Shown here piece by piece: positions 2,846 to 13,830 of a DNA stretch of 18,029 nucleotides (positions within the stretch are counted from its first letter, which is position 1; each line of letters starts with the position of its first letter). Source of the DNA: Clostridia bacterium. GTDB lineage: Bacteria > Bacillota_A > Clostridia > Oscillospirales > CAG-272. Where the stretch lies: the NCBI GenBank assembly GCA_017632155.1, contig JAGBRZ010000209.1:1-18029 (forward strand), given 5' to 3'. The notes under the pieces were generated by a model, which was not told the DNA's origin, made no database searches, and worked only from the letters and a program-made list of their open reading frames with translations. The position numbers and the translations under genes are program-made.

Positions 2846-3007
2846 ATTACGAGCCGTAGGGGACGGCGCCCTCGACGTCCCATTACAGCACATAATTATT
2901 TAGCTGGAAAAATTCAGAAGCTACAATATTATTTCCTTGATATAGTTGTACAGCAATAATTTAATTGGGCTGGGACGTCGAGGGCGCCGTCCCCTACGGC
3001 TCGTAAT
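2846..3007. repeat. 162-bp MITE-like element with 37-bp perfect inverted ends
   Basis: Positions 2846-2882 are the exact reverse complement of 2971-3007 (37 of 37), separated by an 88-nt AT-rich centre with no ORF. The arms are GC-rich, in contrast to their flanks, and contain the palindromes GGCGCC and GACGTC. Each arm can also fold by itself (GGGACG with CGTCCC). No convincing target-site duplication is visible. It lies between galT and the small membrane protein gene and would form a very stable RNA hairpin, so it may also end galT transcription. Similar GTAGGGGACGGC-type intergenic repeats are, to my recollection, common in gut Clostridia. Confidence 0.85.
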
Positions 3008-3065: not shown

Positions 3066-3560
3066 ATGAAACGCTACAATATTAATTGGTACAACGGTTG
3101 GAAGATACTGATCGATCTGGTCTATATTCCTTTATTGATTATATGTGTTCCGTTTGTTTGGACGATAATCTGTGTATGGTGGCTCATATTCTCGGATAAT
3201 CTGGCAATTCCGACCTTGGCCTGCGCTATTCTTGCCGTTGCGGTAATCTTAATAACGCTTTATTTCGGCTTGGCAAACCGCTTTTATTATGACGAAAATA
3301 ACCAGGAAATTATTCTTAAGCTGATCCATCAACAGCCACGGCGCATACCAATCCGCGATATTGCTCTTGTTTCGCGTAAAATTAATACAAACAAGGACAA
3401 AGGTCCGGTTACGCATTATGGCAAGAATGATGCTTACGAACATAAAACCTATGGCGTTTCAGATGCCGAGGGCAGGGATTATTTCTATATAAAAGATGAT
3501 CCTATTCTCTTTGAATTCTTTGAAAATTTGAAAATCAATGTCAAACGCAAGGAAGAATGA
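3066..3560 (+). CDS. Small membrane protein with C-terminal PH-like domain (paralogue 1)
   Basis: Not a recognised named family. The 164-residue protein has two hydrophobic segments (about 16-43 and 47-71), followed by a soluble part of about 90 residues. The soluble part starts at YYDENNQEIIL and continues through RRIPIRDI to DYFYIKDDP near the C-terminus. That layout resembles bacterial PH-like (DUF304-type) membrane proteins, which is inference only. AGGAG at 3056-3060 supports the ATG. It is a diverged paralogue of the protein at 13831-14304: both share the start MK-x-Y-x-IN-x2-NGW, the YYDE segment, RRI-x3-DI and DYF-x-I-x-D-x-P. It stands alone between two repeat regions, without the membrane partner found beside paralogue 2. 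No clear promoter was found. Confidence 0.7.
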   Translation: MKRYNINWYNGWKILIDLVYIPLLIICVPFVWTIICVWWLIFSDNLAIPTLACAILAVAVILITLYFGLANRFYYDENNQEIILKLIHQQPRRIPIRDIALVSRKINTNKDKGPVTHYGKNDAYEHKTYGVSDAEGRDYFYIKDDPILFEFFENLKINVKRKEE

Positions 3561-3566
3561 AATCTT

Positions 3567-3795
3567 TGCGCTTCGCGCAGGGTGACAGAGCGCAATACTT
3601 CCCTACATTCGGGAAGTATTGACTCTGTCCAAAAATCCGAAGCAGAGCTTCGTCTTTTTGAAGCATAGAAGCAAAGGCTGAAGCCTTTGCTTTGAAATGA
3701 GGCTCCGCCTCAAACTCCGCAAACTTTTGAAAAAGTTTGATCAAAACTTTCTCGCTGTTTTATTTTTATAAAAATTTTCGCGACAGCGAAAATTT
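3567..3795 (+). repeat. Palindrome array, copy 1 (hairpins A, B, C, D, E, F)
   Basis: A chain of hairpins starts 7 nt after the stop codon of paralogue 1. A small leading stem at 3567-3579 comes first. Hairpin A is 3584-3629: 7-bp outer stem, CG/A internal loop, 11-bp inner stem. Hairpin B is 3630-3660: 6-bp stem, TC/TC internal loop, 6-bp stem. Hairpin C is 3671-3690, hairpin D is 3698-3712 with a TCC loop, the 39-bp unit E is 3717-3755, and hairpin F is 3772-3795. A, B, D and E recur near 13619-13830 in the same order and on the same strand relative to the neighbouring paralogue. Whether it works as RNA, DNA or a mobile palindrome is unknown. Confidence 0.75.
3717..3755 (+). repeat. 39-bp repeat unit E, copy 1
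   Basis: Exact reverse complement of 13581-13619 (39 of 39). It contains two overlapping hairpins that cannot form together: CAAACTTT/AAAGTTTG and AAAGTTT/AAACTTT, which share the central AAAGTTT. That layout resembles a two-state RNA switch, but no regulated gene or ligand is evident. Confidence 0.9.
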
Positions 3796-13538: not shown

Positions 13539-13830
13539 ACTTTTCGCCGAGGCGAAAAGTATTTTGTAAAATTTCAAAAAGCGAGAAAGTTTTGATCAAA
13601 CTTTTTCAAAAGTTTGCGGTTTCTTAAGGCGGAGCCTTAAGTCGCGCTCCGCAGACATATTTGCCTACGGCAAAAGTCGACTCTGTCTTGTCGGCTCCCG
13701 CCTCCATTTTCCTTCGGAAAACCGCCAGAGCCGCGGCGAAAATCCCATTGTGCTTCAAACAGACGGCGCCCCGCCGGCTGTTTGGAAGGAGTCAAGCCTT
13801 ACCTTGCGTAAGGCTTGCGCTCCTTCACCC
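13539..13830 (-). repeat. Palindrome array, copy 2 (hairpins A', B', D', E', F')
   Basis: On the minus strand it starts at the base after the TAA of paralogue 2. A' is 13826-13785: outer stem 13820-13826/13785-13791, inner stem 13808-13817/13793-13802. B' is 13784-13756. An extra set of stems covers 13733-13660, including CGGCTC/GAGCCG, TTTTCC/GGAAAA and TTTGCC/GGCAAA. D' is 13641-13623, E' is 13619-13581 and F' is 13560-13539. Order and strand relative to the gene match copy 1, although stem sequences differ and are compensated. The intervening part is longer here, so insertions or losses of hairpin units have occurred. Confidence 0.75.
13581..13619 (-). repeat. 39-bp repeat unit E, copy 2
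   Basis: Identical on the minus strand to 3717-3755 over all 39 bases. In both copies it lies three or four bases after the TCC-loop hairpin D. It is placed downstream of paralogue 2 and upstream of the DJ-1 operon. Confidence 0.9.

Follow-up and report, generated by a model that had tools for sequence, protein, structure and literature searches.

A dispersed palindromic repeat of five hairpins with covarying stems in a small clade of gut Clostridia

Background

Two distant intergenic regions of one clostridial contig hold twin hairpins that share an architecture rather than a sequence. Are these isolated structured RNAs, hairpins that act in DNA, or parts of something larger? The window studied here is the whole stretch of 18,029 nucleotides of contig JAGBRZ010000209.1 (Clostridia bacterium, assembly GCA_017632155.1). 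A first-pass annotation, made from the letters of the window, described the hairpins, suggested that selection maintains their structure as RNA or as a hairpin recognised in DNA, and cautioned that DNA processes can also keep palindromes symmetric. We followed these ideas through related genomes.

Results and discussion

Two copies of one repeat unit

The twin hairpins are present at 3580-3665 (+) and 13830-13751 (-), with the architecture originally described. The unit is longer than that description implied, since at both places the hairpin pair continues into three more hairpins (Table 1). Each locus is a copy of the same intergenic repeat, a dispersed unit of about 170 bp that comprises five hairpins, A to E. 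When copies are set side by side, the order is RGGGTGA, hairpins A and B, GAAGCA, hairpins C, D and E, and finally AAAACTTT. Hairpin A usually has a 2x1 internal loop, and hairpin B usually has a 1x1 mismatch. The loop of hairpin C defines two types (TGAA, type I; TGCG, type II), and variants of D and E were found with both. The linkers CG and A, which had been taken as fixed, vary among copies, with CA, AT and a single T among the alternatives. The TC of hairpin B is not constant either: in copy 2, the outer stem extends to 7 bp and a single C.T mismatch remains.

Table 1. Positions of the repeat copies, their hairpins and a neighbouring inverted pair in the window
Feature	Positions	Strand	Remarks
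Copy 1, repeat unit, type I	3580..3750	+	GGGTGA to AAAACTTT; model match 102.2 bits for 3580-3665; ends by copy-to-copy comparison
Copy 1, hairpin A	3584..3629	+	GACAGAG/CTCTGTC, CG x A internal loop, CAATACTTCCC/GGGAAGTATTG
Copy 1, hairpin B	3630..3660	+	CAAAAA/TTTTTG and CGAAGC/GCTTCG around unpaired TC x TC
Copy 1, hairpin C	3671..3690	+	Loop TGAA
Copy 1, hairpin D	3698..3712	+	TGAGGCTCCGCCTCA
Copy 1, hairpin E	3720..3739	+	CAAACTTTTGAAAAAGTTTG, then ATCAAAACTTT
Optional extra hairpin	3567..3579	+	TGCGCTTCGCGCA, directly 5′ of the copy 1 unit
Copy 2, repeat unit, type II	13586..13830	-	Model match 82.1 bits for 13751-13830
Copy 2, hairpin A	13785..13826	-	GAAGGAG/CTCCTTC, CG x A, CAAGCCTTAC/GTAAGGCTTG
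Copy 2, hairpin B	13756..13784	-	CAAACAG/CTGTTTG, one C.T mismatch, CGGCG/CGCCG
Copy 2, hairpin D	13623..13641	-	CTTAAGGCTCCGCCTTAAG
Copy 2, hairpin E	13597..13616	-	CAAACTTTTGAAAAAGTTTG
GTAG-type REPIN	2846-2882 / 2971-3007		37-nt perfect inverted pair, GTAGGGG/CCCCTAC

The extra hairpin that precedes the unit occurs in some copies only. Copy 2 carries an insert in its hairpin C part. This insert is also found in two other loci (L006 and L121), and it occurs alone, after other copies, as well.

Alignments between copies of the same genome place the ends of the unit. Of 181 such alignments, 98 start no more than 5 bases from GGGTGA and 83 start elsewhere; 21 of the starts lie at -14 to -18, often the site of the extra hairpin. 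The ends fall at +165 to +189 in 103 of 181 cases, and near +140 in 22. A purine immediately precedes the unit in 124 of 129 copies. Spacing is well kept: where E motifs have A/B upstream, 80 of 91 are 137-146 nt from the unit start. Listed A/B matches are missing upstream of 18 of 109 E motifs, about 11 of which do show A/B sequence by reading. A search with one E variant revealed no autonomous copy that encloses a gene.

Among 200 dinucleotide shuffles, no fold matched that of either window copy (z -5.55 for copy 1 and -5.00 for copy 2). When copy 1 is folded by itself as RNA, the structure of lowest energy lacks hairpin B, and a competitor hairpin of the GCTTCG/GAAGC type forms instead. We accepted hairpin B because of the comparison among copies, not from a single-copy fold. 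A terminator scan of the window found 35 candidates against 23.9 expected overall, and hairpin B of both copies is listed among them as weakly terminator-like. The look of an intrinsic terminator (a GC-rich stem and a T run) fits some copies of hairpin A, but not that of type I.

Both window copies follow small genes. Copy 1 starts 19 nt past the stop codon of gene 3066-3560 (+) and copy 2 starts 0 nt past that of gene 14304-13831 (-), and the two genes are paralogues with 32% identity. We considered whether the unit is part of this family of small membrane-protein genes and rejected the idea, as the family was found next to the unit only at orthologous loci. The region 3066-3560 can be compared with the locus L123:212-700. 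Their upstream flanks are 98.8% identical over 247 nt, but the intervening genes are only 38% identical as proteins. Perhaps a gene was swapped for its paralogue between the REPIN and the five-hairpin unit, possibly through exchange at the repeats.

Distribution

We scanned 84,980 species genomes with the invariant parts of hairpin A, using a seed pattern that fixes part of stem A and leaves hairpin B free. The scan gave 24 loci. Of these, 23 are in four MAGs, and the remaining one is a chance-like match in Gemmatimonadales without the rest of the unit. The four carriers (G001-G004, all of them draft genomes) are titled Clostridia bacterium and derive from goat colon, goat cecum, yak colon and dairy-cattle colon.

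A covariance model of hairpins A and B (R1) has at least 62, at least 86, at least 29 and at least 58 matches in the four carriers (E up to 0.01), which are lower bounds because scoring was limited to 150 of the 1264-1418 first-look candidates in each genome. At the level of the genus, 4 of 13 genomes match (27-74 matches each, E up to 1e-4) and the other nine have no match. In a sample of 196 genomes from the family, searched with stricter filters, G001 and G002 are strong and one other genome is marginal (E 7e-4). We also ran the model on 656,704 bases, consisting of the window and, L200 excepted, the 100 regions extracted of 102 selected (two in G003 were left out). This yielded 177 matches, nine of which, as read from the table, overlap a better match on the opposite strand.

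The first-pass annotation knew of no named family with this layout, and our searches agree: for the window and four carrier loci, Rfam returned weak matches only and nothing at gathering score. Two patterns gave 0 matches in viral contigs, the repeat had no match among plasmid and phage records, and we found no description of a five-hairpin repeat in the open-access literature. The repeat is a real, clade-restricted, high-copy dispersed family, not a pair of isolated structures. Its distribution, with tens of near-copies in 4 of the 13 related genomes and no copy in the remaining nine, is the pattern of a mobile repeat.

Covariation of the stems

We aligned 149 distinct copies, drawn from the best 150 of the 177 matches. 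In this alignment, which was fitted to its own model and therefore favours pairing, 94.2% of 4641 stem cells pair, versus 73.1% in shuffles, and 29 of 32 stem pairs show change on both sides. Two-sided cells number 920 (301 in shuffles), while one-sided cells with a standard pair, i.e., of the G.U type, number 13. Pairing falls to 35-52% when the partner is slid by 1-3 columns. With the APC-corrected G-statistic, the top 15 column pairs are all stem pairs and rank above every non-stem pair. A MAFFT alignment of 23 copies, from a set of 25 in which two with inserts in hairpin B were left out, has 94.7% pairing, and 16 of 32 pairs have two-sided changes. That paired substitutions hold the stems together, as was first proposed from two copies, is therefore seen over 149 copies with controls. 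A check for homologues and covariation had also been recommended. With dozens of copies in related Clostridia and covariation by the G-statistic, neither "few homologues" nor "no covariation" describes this family.

Covariation this strong could mean that the array is transcribed and selected as RNA, for example as a transcript-end stabiliser, a bidirectional terminator or a small RNA, with the paired changes reflecting RNA folding. We regard this explanation as unlikely, although several features agree with it. On the plus strand, A.C accounts for most mismatches of hairpins A and B (82, versus 17 G.T; 61 versus 12 in the core). The excess of A.C recurs in one-sided differences between nearest neighbours (45 versus 8), and is 51 versus 4 by another hairpin finder. 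Such a bias is expected from tolerance of G.U in an RNA of the complementary strand. However, it is missing in hairpins C-E, which have 23 A.C and 36 G.T mismatches. We do not take the asymmetry as proof of RNA, since it is confined to A and B and would equally arise if the complementary strand deaminated more. The tetraloops TGCG and TGAA of hairpin C also speak for RNA, but on the plus strand they would suit an RNA of the other sense. Moreover, some copies of hairpin A resemble bidirectional terminators (e.g., L151 and L154). Against an RNA stand the small number of wobble-type one-sided cells (13), the lack of an Rfam match at gathering score and the mobile-repeat pattern among related genomes.

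How the stems change

Changes in the stems mostly affect both sides of a pair. In 27 orthologous copy pairs, which were chosen by hand, have flanks that are mostly 75-93% identical and in some cases share a locus, 660 pair cells are unchanged, 29 are changed on one side and 132 on both. Nearest neighbours exhibit 132 two-sided and 66 one-sided changes, and 24 listed copy pairs with 1-4 differences exhibit 12 and 8, respectively. The sole difference between the copies of L153 and L115 over 86 nt is one base pair, which is CG in one and AT in the other. Similarly, L183/L139 and L186/L156 differ by two fully changed pairs each and are otherwise identical. Such base-pair swaps include transversions without a G.U step, so nothing in them singles out RNA. 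As a control for one- versus two-sided change, terminators supplied only 2 usable pairs.

Between orthologues, stem bases change about as often as unpaired bases (293 of 1642 versus 86 of 494). Stems thus change at the unpaired rate but in concert, and one-sided states must either be eliminated quickly or be made symmetric by copying from arm to arm.

The second of these possibilities might be sufficient by itself. The hairpins could be functionless relics of some age whose symmetry is maintained by DNA repair that copies arm to arm, such as template switching or mismatch repair in hairpins, along with exchange between copies. Two-sided changes with few intermediates, transversions included, are what such repair would leave; the equal rates of change agree with it, as does one locus (L188) from which whole hairpins were lost. 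Nevertheless, we consider purely passive palindromes quite improbable. If repair acted alone, the 1x1 mismatch of hairpin B would be lost, but 131 of 149 copies retain it in one of three forms (C.T 58, T.C 47, A.A 26). Since this mismatch stays while the surrounding stem changes, copying of arms is insufficient on its own. Repair would also tend to invert loops, but the reverse-complement loops TTCA and CGCA are absent from the 14 commonest loops of hairpins C-E, and arm copying alone is thus insufficient for the loops too. In addition, the order and spacing of hairpins A-E are kept. The early caution about DNA processes was nonetheless apt, in that such processes fit at least as well as selection on RNA.

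Orientation, gain and loss

By ORF calls that are crude, 115 of 150 copies could be placed between ORFs of at least 150 codons; 13 are inside such an ORF, and the remainder lack a flanking ORF. Among the placed copies, 40 lie in tandem gaps with the unit in gene direction and 35 in tandem gaps against it, 19 are in convergent gaps and 21 in divergent ones. With a cut-off of at least 100 codons, 101 copies are placed and 33 are inside an ORF, and tandem gaps have 30 with and 29 against. The direction is therefore even, divergent gaps included, which is a further point against a structured RNA. With placement so even, an RNA from one strand does not account for the mismatches and loops as a whole, and we favour folding as DNA with moderate confidence. 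The original suggestion of selection for structure, as RNA or as a DNA hairpin, thus stands as far as the compensatory pairing is concerned. Its RNA half fares less well, as nothing singles out RNA when gene direction is even and one-sided cells number 13 against 920 two-sided ones.

Most copies are singlets. In the set of 150 copies, all six close pairs (at most 300 bp apart) are head-to-head. From the 177 matches we picked by eye 15 head-to-head pairs, leaving out one convergent pair (L183), the nine overlapping matches on opposite strands and pairs more than 100 bp apart. The spacers of these 15 pairs range from 12 to 84 bp, with 11 at 22-28 bp, and differ in sequence.

We found no target-site duplication: direct repeats at the ends of 129 copies equal those of shuffled pairings. 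The unit is missing in only 5 of 55 flank-matched comparisons, and so copies mostly stay put. Those of the five that were inspected are loss-like or ambiguous. In L188, remnants of the unit's linkers persist while the hairpins are gone, so this locus reads as a loss and not as a clean empty site. Among the inspected loci there is no clean empty site; losses were seen and gains were not.

At one locus of G003 (L190:2130-2330), there is only a terminator-like hairpin, CAATAGCCCC..GGGGCTATTG, where other species hold the unit (L107, L128 and L183). The inner stem of this hairpin is the inner stem of hairpin A in the units at that locus. G003 may have kept hairpin A here, or the unit may have been built around a resident terminator.

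Comparison with known repeats

The unit works like known palindromic repeats, yet it is neither a REP by definition nor a classical MITE. One close comparison is to REPs and REPINs, which are associated with TnpA-REP (RAYT). According to excerpts of the literature (PMC3116915, PMC8266576, PMC3733652), these are also intergenic, palindromic and present in high copy number, form head-to-head inverted pairs, keep a stem mismatch in some groups and exhibit compensatory stem changes. Specifically, the cited part of PMC3116915 describes REPIN doublets as inverted pairs and compensatory changes as common in the hairpins. Part of another report states that the E. coli REP enzyme requires the stem mismatch and acts on one strand only (PMC8266576), and a section of a third describes GTAG/CGTC tags and head-to-head dimers of REPs (PMC3733652). 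Head-to-head doublets with a preferred spacing, which characterize REPINs, are also formed by the present unit (6 of 6; 11 of 15 at 22-28 bp). However, REPs are single hairpins of 20-50 nt, whereas the unit has about 170 bp and five hairpins. REPs have a GTAG or CGTC tag by the hairpin; in the copies that we read, the unit has RGGGTGA before hairpin A and no GTAG, and CGTC occurs only inside some B stems and never as an unpaired tag. Finally, a RAYT gene is flanked by its repeat, but the present unit has no adjoining RAYT (L055, L056).

BOX elements of pneumococcus, BIMEs and NIMEs resemble the unit in other ways. As described in part of PMC3049150, they consist of modules in a fixed order, exchange module variants, are dispersed, fold and are thought to be parasitic; BOX itself is composite and probably parasitic. 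In contrast, all five modules of our unit are hairpins, and it is their stems rather than their sequences that are kept. This likeness is one of description, and by sequence the unit was compared with Rfam only. MITEs are likewise short, dispersed, non-coding and highly base-paired. Unlike in MITEs, the ends of the unit, GGGTGA and AAAACTTT, are not inverted repeats, and we found no target-site duplication.

Palindromic candidate structured RNAs from human microbiomes are intergenic, exhibit significant covariation and come from gut genomes, as does our repeat. In the portion of the report that we cite, they are mostly predicted terminators, and the comparison is by description only (PMC8040213). 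Stem-loop families have been catalogued in 40 genomes, as an excerpt of that survey indicates (PMC2267715).

Enzyme partners

A GTAG-type REPIN is also present in the window (Table 1), and the unit could conceivably be mobilised together with it by the IS200-like Y1 (RAYT) enzymes of the clade. In carriers G002, G004 and G001, this REPIN has 47, 20 and 7 matches, and it has none in the other ten genomes of the genus. Two of the four carriers and one of the nine non-carriers have genes for Y1 transposases. Those of G003 (L055) and G002 (L056) score 27.3 and 23.2 bits as Y1_Tnp (cut-off 23), and both adjoin GTAG-type inverted pairs like that at 2846-3007, not the five-hairpin unit. Neither locus has an A/B match, and, by reading, no GTAG tag lies beside the unit's hairpins. 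G003 carries the unit, yet the window REPIN has no match above the cut-off there, while carriers G001 and G004, as draft genomes, show no Y1 gene. For these reasons, a Y1 partnership was not borne out, and mobilisation of the unit by these enzymes is highly improbable.

Other candidates fared no better. TnpB was found in 0 of 13 genomes of the genus. We rejected IS110, which is present in 1 of the 13, a non-carrier, and reverse transcriptase, which is present in 7 of the 13 but among carriers in G002 only. Hence, none of the tested families (Y1, TnpB, IS110 and reverse transcriptase) tracks the carriers.

A probable DNA repeat that may be read by its shape

Probably, the unit is a composite palindromic DNA repeat of a small clade that has multiplied in intergenic regions, is most likely non-autonomous and works like a large REPIN or BOX. 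A DNA repeat of the REPIN/BOX type, probably non-autonomous and once mobile, fits better than a discrete RNA, and we favour folding as DNA over folding as RNA with moderate confidence. The arms would fold while the DNA is single-stranded, and a protein supplied in trans would recognise the folded strand and copy the unit. A mutation in one arm would soon be copied to the other by hairpin-templated repair, or be removed by selection. With such a DNA repeat, the sequence would drift and the shape would stay. One observation against it is that TGCG loops, which are of the UNCG type on the plus strand, would suit RNA. Single-stranded DNA and UUCG loops are discussed for another motif in part of PMC2864571.

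More tentatively, the unit might be a mobile element that is addressed by structure. A trans factor would then read the shape of the hairpins (the bulge in A, the 1x1 mismatch in B and the fixed loops) rather than their sequence. Stems would be free to drift, hairpins could be exchanged or rebuilt around resident ones, and hairpin-templated correction of DNA would keep the arms complementary. This more specific proposal is rather doubtful, but its consequences would be considerable. Strong covariation could then arise where no RNA is involved, and such elements might be among the structured-RNA candidates of gut Clostridia. If the enzyme exists, a mobile unit would be read by shape.

A functional RNA is usually argued from covariation. 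In this family, nearly all stem pairs covary, yet gene direction, the pattern within the clade and the scarcity of intermediates point to DNA. The family therefore warns against taking covariation alone as a sign of RNA. It also offers a natural data set for asking whether selection or templated repair keeps palindromes symmetric, in which orthologous copies in several species would allow the steps to be timed.

Associated small palindromes

Two smaller kinds of palindrome accompany the repeat. A small hairpin, TTTGCCTTCGGCAAA or its complement, lies within hairpin B, C or E in individual copies (L101:2501-2604 (-), L125, L181 and similar), as if hairpins gained inserts as whole palindromes. 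In addition, tandem arrays of short palindromes are located 3′ of many copies (e.g., L115, L125, L128 and L142) with TTAACT or a similar spacer. Each of these palindromes has its own stem sequence, with loops such as GAA and GCA.
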